Below, in pieces: positions 14,477 through 57,587 of a stretch of DNA of 63,989 nucleotides. Source of the stretch: Patescibacteria group bacterium AH-259-L05 (GTDB lineage: Bacteria > Patescibacteriota > Patescibacteriia > UBA2591 > UBA6264). The stretch lies in the NCBI GenBank assembly GCA_027717985.1, contig JALLOO010000002.1, forward strand, positions 71,257 to 135,245. The letters are read 5' to 3'. The position numbers and the translations under genes were made by a program. Each line of letters starts with the position of its first letter. Position 1 is the first letter of the stretch. The notes under the pieces were generated by a model. That model was given only the letters and a program-made list of their open reading frames with translations. It made no database searches and was not told where the DNA came from.

Positions 14477-14505
14477 TTGACAGAGAGGATTTTTTTAGCT
14501 ACTAT
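14477..14505 (+). promoter_or_regulatory. Sigma70-type promoter for the IDO-like gene
   Basis: TTGACA, 17-base spacer, TACTAT. Confidence 0.75.
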
Positions 14506-14548
14506 TATTAATAATTGATCTTTTACAGAACAGAAAAGGAGACAAATT

Positions 14549-15760
14549 ATGAGTGTTGATATGCGTGAGATAAATACAGAAGTCAGAAAGATTATGAAAA
14601 GACATGGTGTTTCATATAAAACCGGATTTCTTGCCGAAAAGCCACTGCGCTGGATACCCTTTGATCAGCGTAATCCATCAGAACAATCCCGATGCTATCA
14701 GTGGCTTGACACAACAGCGCATACGCTCCCCGAGTTGATTGCGCAGAAAGCGGTACGTAAACGTGTAGAAATGTTAGAGACCCCATCATGGTTATTTGTT
14801 GATTTAGATAGAGAAGTCATTAACCTTTTACTATTGAATTTTACTATGATTATTCATGCATACTTTAGAGAGACATTTCCTTATAGTAACGTTGGTGAGT
14901 TAATGCAGGATGAGAGTATAAAGTATGTGCCGCCACAGCTTGCCATACCAGCATGGGAGCTTTCAAAAATTGTGGGTATGCATCCTGTTATGTCATATTG
15001 TTTGTATAGTCCTTGTAACTACTATATACCTGATCAGAATAAGGCATTATCCTTAGATAATATTGAGTTGATTCATTCGTTTACCAATACGCTGGATGAG
15101 AAGTGGTTTGTATGGGATCATCAGGTTGTTGAGAAAATAGTGGCACCAGCTATTCCTGCATTACTTAAAGCGTACCTATTGTGTAAGCGTAATGATCCTC
15201 CGGTTGATGCAATAGTTTATTACCTTTCTGTTGCTACACGGGCGCATGAAAAAGCAGTTGATGTTCTTGAACGAATGCGCGAGCACTGCGATTATCAGAC
15301 ATATTTTGACCAGGTACGATTGTTCTATTCATTTCCAAAAAATGTTGTTTTTGAAGGCGTGGATGAACTTAAGGGAGAGCCGCAAAACTTTTTTGGTGAA
15401 ACAGGAGGACAGAGTCCGTTTATGCACCTTCGTCTTGCTATATTAGGCATTGATCATTATAAAGATCCATACTTTGCAAAAATGCGCGATTATATGCCAA
15501 AAGAATTTCGAAGTCTTATTGAATTGATAGGTGATTCAAAGATTCGTCAATTTGTACTTGATTGCGTGAAAAAGGGAGAGGCAAGGCCAGTACGTCGTTA
15601 TAATGCGCTAGTAATGTCAATTCTTGCATGGGAAGCAGAACATATTACCTTGGTTGATGATTATATTAAACAGTACGGCGAGGTTTATGGAACGGGTAAG
15701 CCACCGCTTGAATGGTTAAGACACCTGTATGATAAAACAAAATCAAAGCTCATTCTCTAG
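14549..15760 (+). CDS. Indoleamine 2,3-dioxygenase-like haem protein
   Basis: 403 residues, the usual IDO length, with the family's landmarks in order: the PPQLAIPAWELSKIVGMHPV segment near 128-147; GETGGQSPFMHLRLAILGI near 283-301, matching the IDO GGSAxQS region; YMPKEFR near 315; and ALVMSILAWEAEHITLVDDY near 353, whose His (about 365) aligns with the proximal haem ligand. A GTG motif follows near 381. The family opens the indole ring of tryptophan with O2. No other kynurenine-pathway gene is nearby, so the role is unclear. Single-gene unit with AAAAGGAG site, strong promoter and terminator. Confidence 0.82.
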   Translation: MSVDMREINTEVRKIMKRHGVSYKTGFLAEKPLRWIPFDQRNPSEQSRCYQWLDTTAHTLPELIAQKAVRKRVEMLETPSWLFVDLDREVINLLLLNFTMIIHAYFRETFPYSNVGELMQDESIKYVPPQLAIPAWELSKIVGMHPVMSYCLYSPCNYYIPDQNKALSLDNIELIHSFTNTLDEKWFVWDHQVVEKIVAPAIPALLKAYLLCKRNDPPVDAIVYYLSVATRAHEKAVDVLERMREHCDYQTYFDQVRLFYSFPKNVVFEGVDELKGEPQNFFGETGGQSPFMHLRLAILGIDHYKDPYFAKMRDYMPKEFRSLIELIGDSKIRQFVLDCVKKGEARPVRRYNALVMSILAWEAEHITLVDDYIKQYGEVYGTGKPPLEWLRHLYDKTKSKLIL

Positions 15761-15766
15761 GTATAA

Positions 15767-15796
15767 AAAGCCCACCTCATTTGAGGCGGGTTTTTG
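15767..15796 (+). terminator. Rho-independent terminator
   Basis: CCCACCTC-attt-GAGGCGGG followed by TTTTTG, after the IDO-like gene. Confidence 0.85.
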
Positions 15797-17059: not shown

Positions 17060-18547
17060 TTATTTATACCATCCTTGGGCTTTAAGAATTTTGCGTAAAG
17101 CCGGGTCATCTAAAGAAACTGGTGGGAGATAAACGCCAATGCGTTCTCGATCCCAAATGGCACCAGTTTTTTTCTTTTCACGAGGGGTTGTGAAGCGATA
17201 TTTATAAAATAAGGCACGAATATAGTGAGGTGGTTGATCTGAAAAAGGATTATGGCGCATCAGAGAAAGGGTGGCTTTATCATTTTTAAGAAGTTTTGCC
17301 ATAAAGTTTATAAACCACGGGTCATAGCCGTACGGAAGAGAAACACCTTCTGAGGTTATGCTAGCGCGAAAGGGTAAAAACCACATAAGCCAATCAAGCC
17401 GTAAATGATACGGAGCAATTTGGGGTGGCGTGCGTTTAAGATCCCCTGGCTTGCCCATAAATTCATATTCATGCCAGGTAGTTTCAGAGCTGATTACGTT
17501 CTCGTTTGTTCCTTCAACAATTACTTCGTAGCGAGGTCTGGTAATAGATCCAAACGCACCATAGGTGCCTACCAAATGTAAAGAGTTATACGAGGTATTC
17601 ATTACTTGACGGCGAGAAAGCATATTGCGTATGGGATAATAACTTAAAAAAGCAGTAATAACTGTGATAAGGATGATAACATAAGCAAAAACAGGCGTAG
17701 GAGCGGAGAGCAGCCCTGGTTTAAAGTGAAACAGCGCTCGAAGTTGTGCCCCGGAAAAGGTAGGGATGACAAGCACCATGGTGAGTAATCCAAGCCAGGA
17801 AAAATTTCCACTTATAAATAACCATCCGTGAAAAAGTAAGGTGAGACCTCCTGCAATTGCGGCAAATGGTTGAGGCGCAAAGTAGAAAAAAGGGACTATT
17901 AGTTCAACAAAATGATTAAACCCGACGCCGAATTGGTGAATCCATTTTGGCAGCCAGTGAAAATACCAACTTAAAGGGTTAGGCATAGGCTGGGTTTCAT
18001 AATGGTAGAAAAGGCAGGTAAAATCGCGCCAACATTCATCGCCTCGGAGTTTAATAAGTCCTGCGCCAAACATGGTTCGAAAAAGCAGCCATCTGAAAAG
18101 TAAAATAACCAAAAAAGAAGGATTGGTTTTTACTGATCCAAGAAAAACAGCAAAAAATCCTGCTTCTAACAGCATGGATTCCCATCCAAACGCAAAAAAG
18201 GATTGACCAACATTTGTAAAAGAAAGGTATAAAATCCAAAGCAGCAGCCAGGTAGTTACTGAAACGCCAGTACCAAATCGTTCAGAAAATCCTAAAAGCG
18301 CAAAGAGGGCCAGTCCTACCCCAAGCCATCCAAAAATGGTAAAGGCGACATCGGTTGATATCCATTGAAAGATGCTGGGGGCATTTCTAAAACTAATGTG
18401 TTGGATAAATTGAGGGACTGGGAGGATACCTTTTTCTCCAACAAGGGGTTTGAATTGGTGCACAATTGCAATAAAAGCAATAAGATATATCAGAGCAAGC
18501 GCTCGCTGAAATATAATTTTGGTAAGCCAATAACCGGTTATTTCCAT
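17060..18547 (-). CDS. Lipase maturation factor (LMF1) family membrane protein
   Basis: About 495 residues with many transmembrane segments. It has the family hallmarks FGWESMLLEAGFFAVFLG, LLFRTMFGAGLIKLRGDECW and FYHYETQPMPNPLSWYFHWL. In animals LMF1 helps lipases fold in the ER; the bacterial role is unknown. The frame is open up to 18613, but that would run through a tRNA gene, so I set the start at the ATG 18547 (MEITGYW). Located just downstream of tRNA-Ala on the same strand. Confidence 0.8.
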   Translation of the reverse strand: MEITGYWLTKIIFQRALALIYLIAFIAIVHQFKPLVGEKGILPVPQFIQHISFRNAPSIFQWISTDVAFTIFGWLGVGLALFALLGFSERFGTGVSVTTWLLLWILYLSFTNVGQSFFAFGWESMLLEAGFFAVFLGSVKTNPSFLVILLFRWLLFRTMFGAGLIKLRGDECWRDFTCLFYHYETQPMPNPLSWYFHWLPKWIHQFGVGFNHFVELIVPFFYFAPQPFAAIAGGLTLLFHGWLFISGNFSWLGLLTMVLVIPTFSGAQLRALFHFKPGLLSAPTPVFAYVIILITVITAFLSYYPIRNMLSRRQVMNTSYNSLHLVGTYGAFGSITRPRYEVIVEGTNENVISSETTWHEYEFMGKPGDLKRTPPQIAPYHLRLDWLMWFLPFRASITSEGVSLPYGYDPWFINFMAKLLKNDKATLSLMRHNPFSDQPPHYIRALFYKYRFTTPREKKKTGAIWDRERIGVYLPPVSLDDPALRKILKAQGWYK

Positions 18548-18575
18548 AACACATTGTCTAAATATGAATTGTTTT

Positions 18576-18649
18576 TGGTGGACCTGGGCGGAATCGAACC
18601 GCCACCACTGCAATGCGAATGCAGCGCTCTACCACTAAGCTACAGGCCC
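18576..18649 (-). tRNA. tRNA-Ala (anticodon CGC)
   Basis: Cloverleaf on the minus strand: acceptor GGGCCTG/CAGGTCC, anticodon arm CTGCA-TTCGCAT-TGCAG, ACCA encoded. Its 5' end follows the stop of the alpha/beta hydrolase gene by one base. Confidence 0.9.
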
Positions 18650-40561: not shown

Positions 40562-41190
40562 TTTACCCTTCAAAATTTTTTTGAAATTTAGAAGGGTGAA
40601 CCAATCTATTCTTATAATTCCTAAGAGCGAATCAAATGAAAAAATTTATTTTTACATTTGTGAGCCCTGACGGAATTTCAAATTTTACTTAATATATCAA
40701 ATTCTTGTTAAGAGAGTTTGATCCTAGCTCAGGATGAACGCTGGCGGCGTGTCTAAGGCATGCAAGTCGAACGGTCCGATTCGTCGGATAGTGGCAGACG
40801 GGTGAGTAACACATTGGTAATCTACCGGAAAGTGGGGAATAACCTTGAGAAATCAGGGCTAATACCGCATGTGTTCTAATGTTGTTTACATTAGAATAAA
40901 GGCCGCAAGGTCGCTTTCTGAGGAGCCTATGGCCCATCAGGTTGTTGGTAGGGTAATGGCCTACCAAGCCAATAACGGGTAGCAGGTGTGAGAGCACGAC
41001 CTGCCTCATTGGGACTGAAACACTGCCCAATCTCCTACGGGGGACTGCAGTCAAGAATCTTCCTCAATGGCCGAAAGGCTGAAGGAGCGACGCCGCATGC
41101 AGGATGAAGCTCTTCGGAGTGTAAACTGCTTTTCTGGGAGAAGAACCTTCGGGTGACGGTACCTCAGGAATAAGCCGCCGCTAACTTCGT

Positions 41191-41572
41191 GCAAGTAATT
41201 TTTGTCTTATCAAAGAGCGCGACTTCTTCGAGTAATCGAAGTTGAAAACTCAGCTTATATGCTGGAACCCTATAAGGATTGCTGCGTTTCGCATAGAGCG
41301 AAATACCTTATGGGCAATCAGCAGGGAAGTTGTCCCGATTAGTCGGGATTAACCCCTCAGAGACTGATTCACTAAATAATATTTAGGTGAAGAGATGACA
41401 GGTACCAAATAATTTGGATTTAAACTGTTATCATACGCTGAGGGTCCTTTATAATCGAAGCGAGGGTCAAAAGAAAAATTTATTTTTCTTTTGCGCCCGA
41501 ACGAAGATTTCAAGCTTTGCTTATTTAGATAAAGGATCATGAGATAGTCCGTAATCGATATAGATCGATACA
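41191..41572 (+). other. Group I intron in 16S near position 516
   Basis: About 382 bases interrupt the universal GTGCCAGCAGC sequence. Core elements of a group I ribozyme are visible: TATATGCTGGAACCC (P region), GCAATCAGCAGGGAAG (Q), CTCAGAGACTGATT (R) and GAGATAGTCC (S). The 5' exon ends in CTTCGT, with U as expected. The exact 3' end is uncertain by 2 bases. It encodes no protein. Confidence 0.82.
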
Positions 41573-41952
41573 GCCAGCAGCTGCGGTAAGACGAAGGCGG
41601 CAAGCGTTATCCGGATTTACTGGGCGTAAAGGGTGCGTAGGCGGTCTGACAAGTTTCTGGTTAAAGTCCTTTGCTCAACATTGGAAATGCTGGAAAAACT
41701 GTCAGACTAGAGGCCGGGAGAGGCAAGCGGAATTGCCGGTGTAGGGGTTAAATCCGTTAATATCGGCAGGAACACCAAATGCGAAGGCAGCTTGCTAGAA
41801 CGGTTCTGACGCTGAGGCACGAAAGCGTGGGGAGTGAAGAGGATTAGATACCCTCGTAATCCACGCCGTAAACGCTGGATGCTGGACATTGGAAGTGTCG
41901 ACCCTTTCAGTGTCGCATAAAAAAGCTAACGCGTTAAGCATCCCGCCTGGGA

Positions 41953-41984
<32 letters not shown>

Positions 41985-42113
41985 AGACGGGAGTTCGCAC
42001 AAGCGGTGGACCATGTGGTTCAATTCGACGATAAGCGAAAAACCTTACCAGGGCTTGACATGCTAGAAGTACCCTGATAGAAACATCGGGGGACCGTCAA
42101 ATCGGAGTCTAGT

Positions 42114-42145
<32 letters not shown>

Positions 42146-42241
42146 GGTGACGTGTACCCTTAAGTGGGGAAACGAGCGGAACCCCTACTGCCAGTTACTA
42201 ACGGGTAAAAGCCGAGGACTCTGGCAGGACTGCCGGTGATG

Positions 42242-42273
<32 letters not shown>

Positions 42274-42470
42274 GCATGGCCCTTATGCCCTGGGCGACAC
42301 ACGTGGTACAATGGCCGGTACAAAGGGTTGCTAAGCCGTAAGGTGGAGCTAATCCCATCAAAGCCGGTCCCAGTTCGGATTGAGGTCTGAAATTCGACCT
42401 CATGAAGCTGGAATCGCTAGTAACCGTGTATCAGCACGGCACGGTGAATACGTTCTCGAACTTTGTACTC

Positions 42471-43465
42471 GGGTGCCTTGCAGCTCTAAAAGCTAATCCG
42501 TTGAAATCGGATCAAGAAGACTATAGACTTTTTGAAGCGAAATTGCAGTCCCGACGCGCGAGTGATCGGGATGAAGGGCAAAAGTAGCATTTTCCAGCTT
42601 GAGTTTTCGTTGAGGCTTTATGTATTGACGACCCTGCGAGTACATGGGGAAGTTATCTATAGATGAAGTACATAAAGTATAGAAGACCAAGATGGAAAAG
42701 AAATGTTTCTAGAGTGACCAAGGGAGATCTCGTGAAGTCCTCGGAATTTATCTTGACATGACTTTAAAATGGTAGTAAACTAAAACCGAGGTATGAATAA
42801 AAGTAATTTTATTTCAAAAACTTCGCGAGAAGTCAGCAGAGCTCATAGTACTCATCGAAATCCTTATAAAAGAAATTTGAGACTTAAGGATCCAGTGGGG
42901 AAGGAGCAAATCCAAGGAAAAGAAGAATTAAATCCTTATTATATAATTGGCTTTATTGAAGGAGAGGGATCATTTTATGTAGGCATCGGCAGACATAAAA
43001 CACTCCGAAGAAAAATAGATATTAGACCCGCATTTACTATTGAACTTCGTGCAGATGATCGTGAGATTCTTGAGCGCATTCTTATTACAATCGGATGCGG
43101 CAAGATATATGATTGTTCATACGAGAGATATGGATGGTATCCGCATGTAAAGTATAAGATTGGAAGTACAAAGGAAATGAAAGAGTTTTTGATTCCTTTT
43201 CTAGATAGATATCCTTTGCAGGCAAAAAAGGCAGAAGTTTACGCTTTATTTCGAGAGATTGTTTTAATGGTTCGCAGAAAAGAACACCTTACTGATAAAG
43301 GATTTAAGAGAATTCAGTATTTACGTAATGAAATGCGTAAGTTCGGCAAAAAGCATAATTATAAAAGGGATTTTAATCCTTCCTTGGAAACCGCCAGGAT
43401 ACGGGAAAACCGTTCGTCCGGTGGTGTGGGACAAAAGATAAAGTAATTTACTTATTGATCCCAAT
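42471..43465 (+). mobile_element. Group II intron in 16S near position 1395, encoding LAGLIDADG protein
   Basis: About 1.0 kb breaks the universal GTACACACTGCCCGTC sequence. A domain V hairpin is visible at 43391-43424: lower stem CCGCC/GGTGG, GAAA-type tip after ACGG, and a bulge before TCCGG, closely matching bacterial group II domain V. Domain VI follows at 43428-43462 with a bulged A eight bases before the end, and the intron ends in AAT. The 5' region contains GTGCC at 42473. Exact 5' and 3' ends are uncertain by a few bases. Confidence 0.68.
42793..43446 (+). CDS. LAGLIDADG homing endonuclease inside the 16S group II intron
   Basis: 217 residues. One clear LAGLIDADG helix, YIIGFIEGEGSF (about residue 50), is followed by the fold's DNA-binding strands; a second motif is not obvious, so it may act as a dimer. 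No reverse transcriptase is present, unlike most bacterial group II introns. The last 18 or so codons overlap domain V and part of domain VI of the intron RNA. The ATG has GAGGT six bases upstream. Such enzymes cut intron-less 16S genes to spread the intron. Confidence 0.82.
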   Translation: MNKSNFISKTSREVSRAHSTHRNPYKRNLRLKDPVGKEQIQGKEELNPYYIIGFIEGEGSFYVGIGRHKTLRRKIDIRPAFTIELRADDREILERILITIGCGKIYDCSYERYGWYPHVKYKIGSTKEMKEFLIPFLDRYPLQAKKAEVYALFREIVLMVRRKEHLTDKGFKRIQYLRNEMRKFGKKHNYKRDFNPSLETARIRENRSSGGVGQKIK

Positions 43466-55568: not shown

Positions 55569-57587
55569 ATGTCACATTTTCACGGTTTCACAAAAGAAGA
55601 ACTCCTCACTATTTACCGGAACATGGTACTCACCCGTAAACTTGACGAAAAGATGCTTATATTGCTACGGCAAGGGAAGGGATTTTTCCATATTGGGGCG
55701 GGGGGCCATGAAGCGGCTCAATTGGCTGCAGCTCGTGTTATGCGCCCAGGAGAGGACTGGTTTTATCCCTACTACCGTGATTTGCCCTTCTGTCTTGGGA
55801 TTGGCATGACCGCCCGTGAGGTGCTGTTGTGCTTTCTTTCCCGGGATGAGGATCCCAATTCGGGTGGCCGCCAGATGCCCACCCATTACAGTCACAAGAA
55901 GCTTCGGGTTGTGTCGCAATCCAGTCCTACCGGGACCCAATTCCTTCAGGCTGTGGGATGCGGGATGGCTGTGGCGAAAGAAGGGAAAAAGGAAGTGGTA
56001 TACGTTTCCGCCGGCGAGGGTACAACCAGCCAAGGGGACTTCCACGAAGCCCTGAACTGGTCCAGCAAAGATAAACTTCCTATCATATTCCACATTGAGG
56101 ACAATAAGTACGCTATTTCGGTCCATATCAGTGAGCAAACGTCTGGCGCATCTGTATATCATATGGTGGCAGGATATAAGAATCTTGCTCGGTTCCAGGT
56201 GGATGGTACCGACTTTTTTGAGTCTTATTTAACGTTTCAGAAAGCGGTGGATCGGGCACGTAAGGGAAAGGGGCCCAGCGTCATTGTGTCAGACGTAGTC
56301 CGCCTTTTTCCCCATTCTTCCTCCGATGATCATCGAAAGTACAGGAAAGAAGAAGAGATTGAGGCGGACCAGAAGCGAGATCCGATTAAGTGTTTTTCAG
56401 ACTATTGTGTCGAAGGTGACGTGATTTCACATGAGGAGTTTCAAGATATTGATAAGGAAGTTGAAGAACAGGTTAGGGCGGATGCCGACTGGGCTGAATC
56501 GCGACCACTTCCAGATCCGGAATCAGCCACAAGATTTGTCTATAGCCAGGACAGCTGCCCCTTGCTTTCGGCGGAACCTGAACCAAACTATATATCCGAT
56601 AAAATCGTGATGGTGGATGCCATTAATCATGCCCTTCGAGAGGAAATGTCAAGGAATGATAAGATGGTAGTATATGGACAGGATGTGGCGGATATGAAAG
56701 GTGGTGTATTTACGGCCACAAAAGGGTTAACGATCGAATTCGGACATGATAGGGTTTTTAATTCACCTTTGGCAGAATCATCCATTATCGGAACCGCGGC
56801 AGGGATGGCAGTGGCAGAATGGAAACCGGTTGTGGAAATCCAGTTCGGTGATTATATTTGGACGGCCATGATGCAGATTCGCAATGAAGTAGCCCCGATG
56901 CGATATCGGTCAAGAAATGACTGGTCCTGCCCCATCGTGATTCGAGTCCCGGTGGGAGGATATATTCATGGAGGACTATGTCATAGCCAATCTATTGACG
57001 GATATTTTCTGCACCTACCCGGAATCCGCATTGCCTACCCCTCCAATGCAGAGGATGCCAAAGGTCTTCTTAAGACCGCCTGTCGAATAGATGATCCCGT
57101 CATGTTTATGGAGCATAAGGCACTATACCGATTAGCCCAGGCAGCGACACCGGAGCCGGATGAGAACTACCTTCTCCCTTTTGGCAAAGCAAAAATCATT
57201 CAGGAAGGTTCCGACCTTTCGATCATTACGTATGGCATGATGGTATATAAGTCTCTTGAAGCATCAAAGAAACTCCACGAATCTACTGGCGCATCCATAG
57301 AAATCATTGATCTGCGCACATTAAACCCTATGGATCTTGATACCATAGAACGTTCGCTCAAAAAGACGAATAAAGTTCTCGTTGTCTATGAGGATAATAT
57401 TACCAACGGTCCTGGCGCGGAGATTTCTGCCATTATTGGAGAGCGGTTTTTTGAGTTTTTGGATGGACCGGTGATACGGGTTGCTGCAAAAGATAGTCCT
57501 GTTCCCTTCAGTTCTGTACTGGAGGATCGGGTTCTGCCGCAAACAGAGGACATTGTCACATCCGCTAGACAGTTACTGGAATACTAA
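55569..57587 (+). CDS. 2-oxoacid dehydrogenase E1, fused alpha and beta subunits
   Basis: 672 residues. Residues 1-310 are E1-alpha, with the thiamine-PP motif GEGTTSQGDFHEALNW and a later KYAIS segment; residues 350-672 are E1-beta (MVVYGQDVADMKGGVF, FNSPLAESSIIG, the YPSNAEDAKGLL region). The family decarboxylates pyruvate or branched-chain 2-oxoacids for transfer to lipoyl E2. No E2 or E3 gene is in the window. The DNA is visibly richer in G+C (33 of 60 bases at 55801-55860, against 16 of 60 at 55141-55200), pointing to transfer. Strong AAAGGAGG site. Confidence 0.88.
   Translation: MSHFHGFTKEELLTIYRNMVLTRKLDEKMLILLRQGKGFFHIGAGGHEAAQLAAARVMRPGEDWFYPYYRDLPFCLGIGMTAREVLLCFLSRDEDPNSGGRQMPTHYSHKKLRVVSQSSPTGTQFLQAVGCGMAVAKEGKKEVVYVSAGEGTTSQGDFHEALNWSSKDKLPIIFHIEDNKYAISVHISEQTSGASVYHMVAGYKNLARFQVDGTDFFESYLTFQKAVDRARKGKGPSVIVSDVVRLFPHSSSDDHRKYRKEEEIEADQKRDPIKCFSDYCVEGDVISHEEFQDIDKEVEEQVRADADWAESRPLPDPESATRFVYSQDSCPLLSAEPEPNYISDKIVMVDAINHALREEMSRNDKMVVYGQDVADMKGGVFTATKGLTIEFGHDRVFNSPLAESSIIGTAAGMAVAEWKPVVEIQFGDYIWTAMMQIRNEVAPMRYRSRNDWSCPIVIRVPVGGYIHGGLCHSQSIDGYFLHLPGIRIAYPSNAEDAKGLLKTACRIDDPVMFMEHKALYRLAQAATPEPDENYLLPFGKAKIIQEGSDLSIITYGMMVYKSLEASKKLHESTGASIEIIDLRTLNPMDLDTIERSLKKTNKVLVVYEDNITNGPGAEISAIIGERFFEFLDGPVIRVAAKDSPVPFSSVLEDRVLPQTEDIVTSARQLLEY

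Follow-up and report, generated by a model that had tools for sequence, protein, structure and literature searches.

Among haem dioxygenases of the IDO family, the branch that degrades tryptophan efficiently comprises the mammalian and fungal enzymes together with those of Gemmatimonas and S. scabiei. This branch alone is described as acting on tryptophan at useful rates; proteobacterial enzymes that have been tested are very slow (PMC4217691), and the same source, citing Yuasa et al., reports very slow tryptophan turnover in several characterised bacterial and fungal IDOs. Residues of the active site can be traced between the two tryptophan-oxidising families: Ser167 of IDO1 is matched by His76 of TDO, Arg231 by Arg144, and Thr379 by Thr342 (PMC5758539). 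Here we describe an IDO-family gene in a bacterium with a reduced genome and place it within this framework.

Gene, fold and flanking signals

The window, by which we mean the whole stretch of DNA analysed, spans 63,989 nucleotides of a genome assembled to 1.03 Mb in 63 contigs and 77.5% complete. Given its small genome size and its relatives, we read the source organism as candidate-phyla type. The gene and the signals around it are as follows.

14549..15760, + strand: ORF for an IDO-family haem dioxygenase of 403 aa, divergent "GTGKPP" subfamily (Pfam, AlphaFold2, alignment)
14477..14505, + strand: promoter-like site, TTGACA-17-TACTAT, 10/12 matches (such sites no commoner than in shuffles)
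14537..14541, + strand: AGGAG ribosome-binding-like sequence, 7 nt before the ATG (sequence)
15771..15796, no strand assigned: terminator-like inverted repeat plus T-run, one A-C mismatch on the + strand (sequence)

The ORF opens with ATG at 14549, and its stop codon ends at 15760. Pfam returned a single family, IDO (PF01231; 165.9 bits, E 1.6e-48, curated cut-off 26), which scored 165.2 bits in the whole-genome search. Comparison with PDB sequences by phmmer gave 25 distinct sequences at E < 1, all IDO1 or IDO2; the best E-value (1.5e-19) fell on human IDO1, and the top match was the engineered S167H mutant 6cxu. The AlphaFold2 model, built on a 47-sequence alignment, reached pLDDT 93.5 and pTM 0.92, and all 50 PDB matches listed by Foldseek were IDO1 or IDO2 (TM 0.78-0.84 by query length, up to 0.91 by target). 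TDO appeared neither among the phmmer matches nor among the fold matches listed. Judged by sequence and predicted structure, 14549-15760 is a real gene whose product is a true, single-domain IDO-family protein, as the initial annotation had proposed.

That annotation also described a single-gene unit with strong expression signals. The first part fits the arrangement, in which a promoter-like site, AGGAG and a hairpin with T-run flank the gene; such sites are no more numerous in the surrounding sequence than after shuffling, so that placement alone is suggestive. A deaminase-like ORF adjoins the gene on one side and an M23 peptidase on the other; the remaining neighbours are NUDIX, ROK kinase and LMF1 genes, in keeping with the earlier remark that no pathway partner is near. 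Encoded at 17060-18613 (- strand) is a lipase maturation factor family membrane protein (PF06762, PF25179), unexpected in a reduced genome; at another locus, L010, an HTTM-domain protein adjoins the Melainabacteria IDO.

Haem and substrate pocket

Pocket positions were read from an alignment with human IDO1, using the chain letters of 6cxu. The following codons were assigned by alignment.

15641..15643, + strand: His365, proximal haem ligand position (human H346)
15119..15121, + strand: His191, distal pocket (human S167, TDO His76 position; 6cxu is the S167H mutant)
15317..15319, + strand: Arg257, substrate carboxylate position (human R231)
15689..15706, + strand: codons 381-386, GTGKPP, altered substrate (JK) loop; the canonical form is GTGGTP
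15116..15118, + strand: Asp190, next to the distal His; unusual, as almost all others have I/V
15632..15634, + strand: Glu362, unusual (human R343; Arg in most)

His365 aligns with human H346 and is invariant across the 93-row alignment, confirming the proximal haem His that had been placed near residue 365. The remaining human IDO1 counterparts are Y126=Y150, F163=F187, S167=H191, F227=F253, R231=R257, S263=T285 and A264=G286; T382, placed by the common GTG motif, matches human T379. Alignment with IDO1 thus found the haem pocket residues present, and the original family assignment, which had been made to hang on them, stands. The contig scan selected its loci by the motif DExWF[VI]x[VID]H[VQ], which makes the invariance of D183, E184, W186, F187 and H191 in those rows partly a product of the search; H191, R257 and H365 are kept in all rows from the full-profile search (L098-L110), which are free of this bias. 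As aligned, the predicted pocket is one with a TDO-like distal His plus Arg and Thr at the substrate-anchoring positions. In the JK loop, GTG and T382 are retained and the next Gly-Thr is replaced by Lys-Pro (GTGGT to GTGKP). This change suggests a substrate range that may not be identical to that of L-tryptophan dioxygenases and, together with the slow bacterial IDOs, makes plain L-tryptophan catabolism less than certain.

Two substitutions lie close to the pocket. Position 190 is Asp in the query and Ile or Val in the other 92 rows of the 93-row alignment, and position 362 is Glu where nearly all other rows of that alignment have Arg; going by the IDO1 literature, we take it that D190 and E362 may change haem-propionate contacts. 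Because the query departs here and at C156 and A360 from near-invariant subfamily positions, the gene could be viewed as a decaying or inactive acquired copy with a damaged pocket. We regard this as very improbable: the frame is open at full length, the model is of high confidence, all ligand and substrate residues are kept, and candidate-phyla IDOs vary at both sites (L099 also has E362, five others carry Leu or Gly there, and several have Asp or Pro at 190). The idea of a pocket damaged uniquely in the query was dropped given these same or other changes elsewhere.

Subfamily, distribution and metabolic setting

The contig scan yielded 80 loci, only seven of which are 43-53% identical to the query (two Melainabacteria, three Methylomirabilota, Spechtbacteria and Sungbacteria), with all others at or below 31%. 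Profile searches added three Spechtbacteria-class genomes (L098-L100) and five more Methylomirabilota. In trees, the 16 subfamily rows, query included, group together with 100/100 support, and the stem of this clade is 1.4 changes per column long. The phylogeny suggested earlier as a check accordingly sets the query apart from ordinary bacterial IDOs and from the human IDO1 and IDO2 rows, both of which fall outside the clade; the query does not group with the mammalian IDO1/2 branch, these rows being the only efficient-branch members compared. A distinctive feature of the clade is an insert.

14876..14911, + strand: codons 110-121, subfamily-specific insert FPYSNVGELMQD (alignment)

The insert measures 11-12 residues across the clade, at about 110-121, with Y112 and D121 in 16/16 rows. 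W361 is likewise found in all 16 subfamily rows, versus F in 30/30 others, and further marks separating the 16 rows from the 30 are Gly287 for Ala, His293 mostly for Pro, Pro290, and Leu354 for Cys. Lys384-Pro385 replaces Gly-Thr in 13/16 subfamily rows, giving GTGKPP where the IDO/TDO substrate loop reads GTGG. On this alignment-based evidence, we show the query's branch to be a deep, long-branched, fully supported and separate IDO subfamily spanning three major lineages.

By path length the query is nearest to Melainabacteria and Methylomirabilota; an alternative that unites the query with every other candidate-phyla member is not rejected (p-AU 0.24), and we leave the direction of transfer open for that reason. 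The mixing of phyla within one clade and the patchy distribution indicate that the subfamily probably crossed phyla horizontally. No IDO over the family cut-off occurs in 57 relatives of the source organism or in the remainder of a sample of 380 genomes from its phylum; the same-genus genome and the four same-family genomes lack it. In the Spechtbacteria class, 15/384 genomes carry an IDO and 5/384 the subfamily, which is also present in 8/95 Methylomirabilota genomes and in 2/240 genomes of the Melainabacteria class. Acquisition, raised in the initial annotation, is plausible and fits this patchiness, but a recent gain does not, since GC (0.392; window genes 0.376 +/- 0.032) and codon use, ordinary for the window, match those of the genome. 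A literature search of partial coverage found no report of IDO in these lineages, which is weak evidence.

Two other origins were considered and set aside. Contamination is unlikely: the contig exceeds 135 kb and bears a 16S gene, and the IDO gene lies within the window range for GC and codon use. For phage or plasmid cargo, no phage record matched, plasmid matches reached only 26-30%, and viral-contig matches were general IDOs. Elsewhere in the window, a fused E1 alpha-beta 2-oxoacid dehydrogenase (55569-57587, + strand) has GC and GC3 of 0.48 each (gene means 0.376 and 0.296), a possible recent acquisition. The 16S rRNA gene (40706-42502, + strand) matches the full bacterial model (1-1533) over 1797 bases, implying ~260 bases of insertion; after it, at 42792-43446, come a group-II-D1D4 intron match and, with it, an endonuclease-like ORF.

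Bacteria of candidate-phyla type are usually portrayed as non-respiring fermenters. Among Patescibacteria single-cell genomes, 0.6% have an O2 reductase (PMC7507113); scattered O2-using enzymes have recently been found in candidate-phyla bacteria, with IDO not named in the accessible part of that report (PMC12577380). Searches of the source genome found no haem-copper oxidase, cytochrome bd, ferrochelatase or indole-3-glycerol-phosphate synthase (trpC), in agreement with the earlier view that an O2- and haem-dependent enzyme is unexpected in this probable fermenter; gene absences here rest on family searches in a genome 77.5% complete. Cytochrome bd, trpC and kynureninase over cut-off are equally missing from the 15 other small-genome IDO carriers, as are haem-copper oxidase and ferrochelatase from the four of them tested (five with the query). 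Genome incompleteness can explain single absences but hardly the pattern common to the carriers. With no ferrochelatase found, haem would come from outside or by a route beyond those searched. The five Melainabacteria/Methylomirabilota carriers, which are aerobic, have haem-copper oxidase-family genes (5/5) and ferrochelatase (4/5). Within the window, a fatty acid hydroxylase family protein (1731-2276, + strand; PF04116, E 1.6e-11) is a second probable O2-using enzyme, of diiron type. Near IDO genes of the Spechtbacteria class lie a multihaem cytochrome c (L130:203-1237) and a cytochrome c (L131:1767-2162); the first 5 kb of L130 may be foreign.

Kynureninase bears on whether the protein is an ordinary L-tryptophan 2,3-dioxygenase feeding the kynurenine route for NAD or catabolism, its partner enzymes being encoded in the unrecovered remainder of the genome or by a partner organism. 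All three tryptophan-anchoring positions are kept, the ordinary IDOs of haloarchaeal plasmids sit beside or near kynureninase, and kynurenine 3-monooxygenase is reported in three candidate-phyla MAGs (PMC12577380). The sole kynureninase model match in the source genome, however, scores 56 bits where the cut-off is 246, and sub-threshold matches to this model are common (10/14 control genomes match, only two passing the cut-off). No kynureninase over cut-off occurs in any of the 16 small-genome carriers or the five aerobic ones, trpC is found in 0/16 small-genome carriers, and the substrate-loop change is specific to the subfamily. We consider this reading unlikely, though it merits more weight than the other alternatives.

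A stand-alone gene without pathway partners, in a genome where no terminal oxidase was found, could instead encode a protein that binds, scavenges or senses O2 through haem, having kept the IDO fold but not efficient catalysis. An IDO-derived myoglobin exists in abalone (PMC4191572), and slow bacterial IDOs (PMC4217691) lend the idea further credit. Arg257, Thr382 and His191 are nevertheless kept across the subfamily, and O2 storage has no need of them; we judge such a role improbable. The oxygen handling raised in the initial annotation finds neither support nor contradiction here.

Conserved IDO partner genes across phyla were sought among the compared loci, and none were found. In two candidate-phyla genomes, L014 and L129, alanine, proline and aldehyde dehydrogenase genes adjoin the IDO gene in collinear regions (L014:1824-7215, L129:6078-11271). 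Between these loci the IDOs are 32% identical and the TatD-like neighbours 76%, IDO diverging far faster than the flanking genes. At L127, an aromatic amino-acid lyase and pterin-4a-carbinolamine dehydratase lie 1-6 kb from the IDO gene, and L128 is similar (blast matches). These neighbours favour amino-acid turnover over host-directed depletion, through a link seen in related genomes and due in part to common descent. Tryptophan depletion of a host, one role first floated for this protein, has in its favour that external tryptophan would matter to an organism that appears to lack trpC; a tryptophan auxotroph would, however, harm itself, the AlphaFold2 model starts with an ordinary soluble helix, nothing links the gene to a host, and Methylomirabilis, not known to have a host, carries close relatives of the protein. 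We find no support for that role and regard it as scarcely credible.

Proposed function and comparison with known systems

We consider it probable, though well short of certain, that the protein stands alone as a haem oxygenase, with scavenged haem as cofactor and tryptophan, or some other indole or aromatic amino acid, as substrate. Haem binding, O2 chemistry on such a substrate and haem import are what we infer. By family chemistry, ferrous haem on His365 would bind O2. Arg257 would hold the carboxylate of an indole-type amino acid or derivative, Thr382 its ammonium group and His191, as in TDO, the indole N-H; O2 would be inserted across the ring C2-C3 bond. Since neither a terminal haem-synthesis step nor a downstream kynurenine enzyme was found, the cell would import haem, and the reaction would probably be a single, stand-alone step of amino-acid turnover whose product is released or used otherwise. 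Counting against this function are the missing pathway, the pocket-adjacent D190 and E362, the assumed haem supply, the slowness of many bacterial IDOs and the fact that the amino-acid neighbours are those of related genomes. More tentatively, and with doubt outweighing confidence, we suggest that candidate-phyla bacteria lacking haem synthesis and aerobic groundwater bacteria share an undescribed IDO subfamily that spread among them, and that in the candidate phyla it may consume O2 on neighbours' haem with a substrate other than free L-tryptophan. If true, cells taken for pure fermenters would have a cross-feeding link, receiving haem and giving off oxidised indole. A preserved haem dioxygenase in 16 small genomes also raises two testable questions: whether O2 is used enzymatically in these cells, and whether they import haem. 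For the debate over residue roles in IDO and TDO, the subfamily further supplies natural variation at the IDO substrate loop and at the distal residue (the S167H equivalent).

Compared with human IDO1 (PDB 8i7l, 6cxu), the query has the same fold (TM 0.81-0.83 by query length, ~24% identity) and retains the proximal His, R231, Y126, F163, F227 and the GTG loop. It differs in His191 for Ser167 (cf. the S167H mutant 6cxu), E284 for G262, L296 for D274, E362 for R343, K384-P385 for G-T and the insert at 110-121. With the common prokaryotic IDOs (Nitrospira, Armatimonadota, haloarchaea and Methylocystis plasmids) it shares PF01231, the distal His, DExWF, the ETG(A/G)Q loop and H365, at no more than about 31-34% identity; its clade, supported at 100/100, stands apart by W361, H293, G287, W189, Q192 and the insert. 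The abalone IDO-like myoglobin, taken here by description and not by sequence, is likewise a repurposed IDO fold and bears on the O2-handling alternative, but the query keeps the substrate residues. Sequence and fold place the query with IDO and not with TDO, yet it probably works as TDO does, with a His-ligated haem, a distal His and Arg for the substrate, and a GTGG-type loop.
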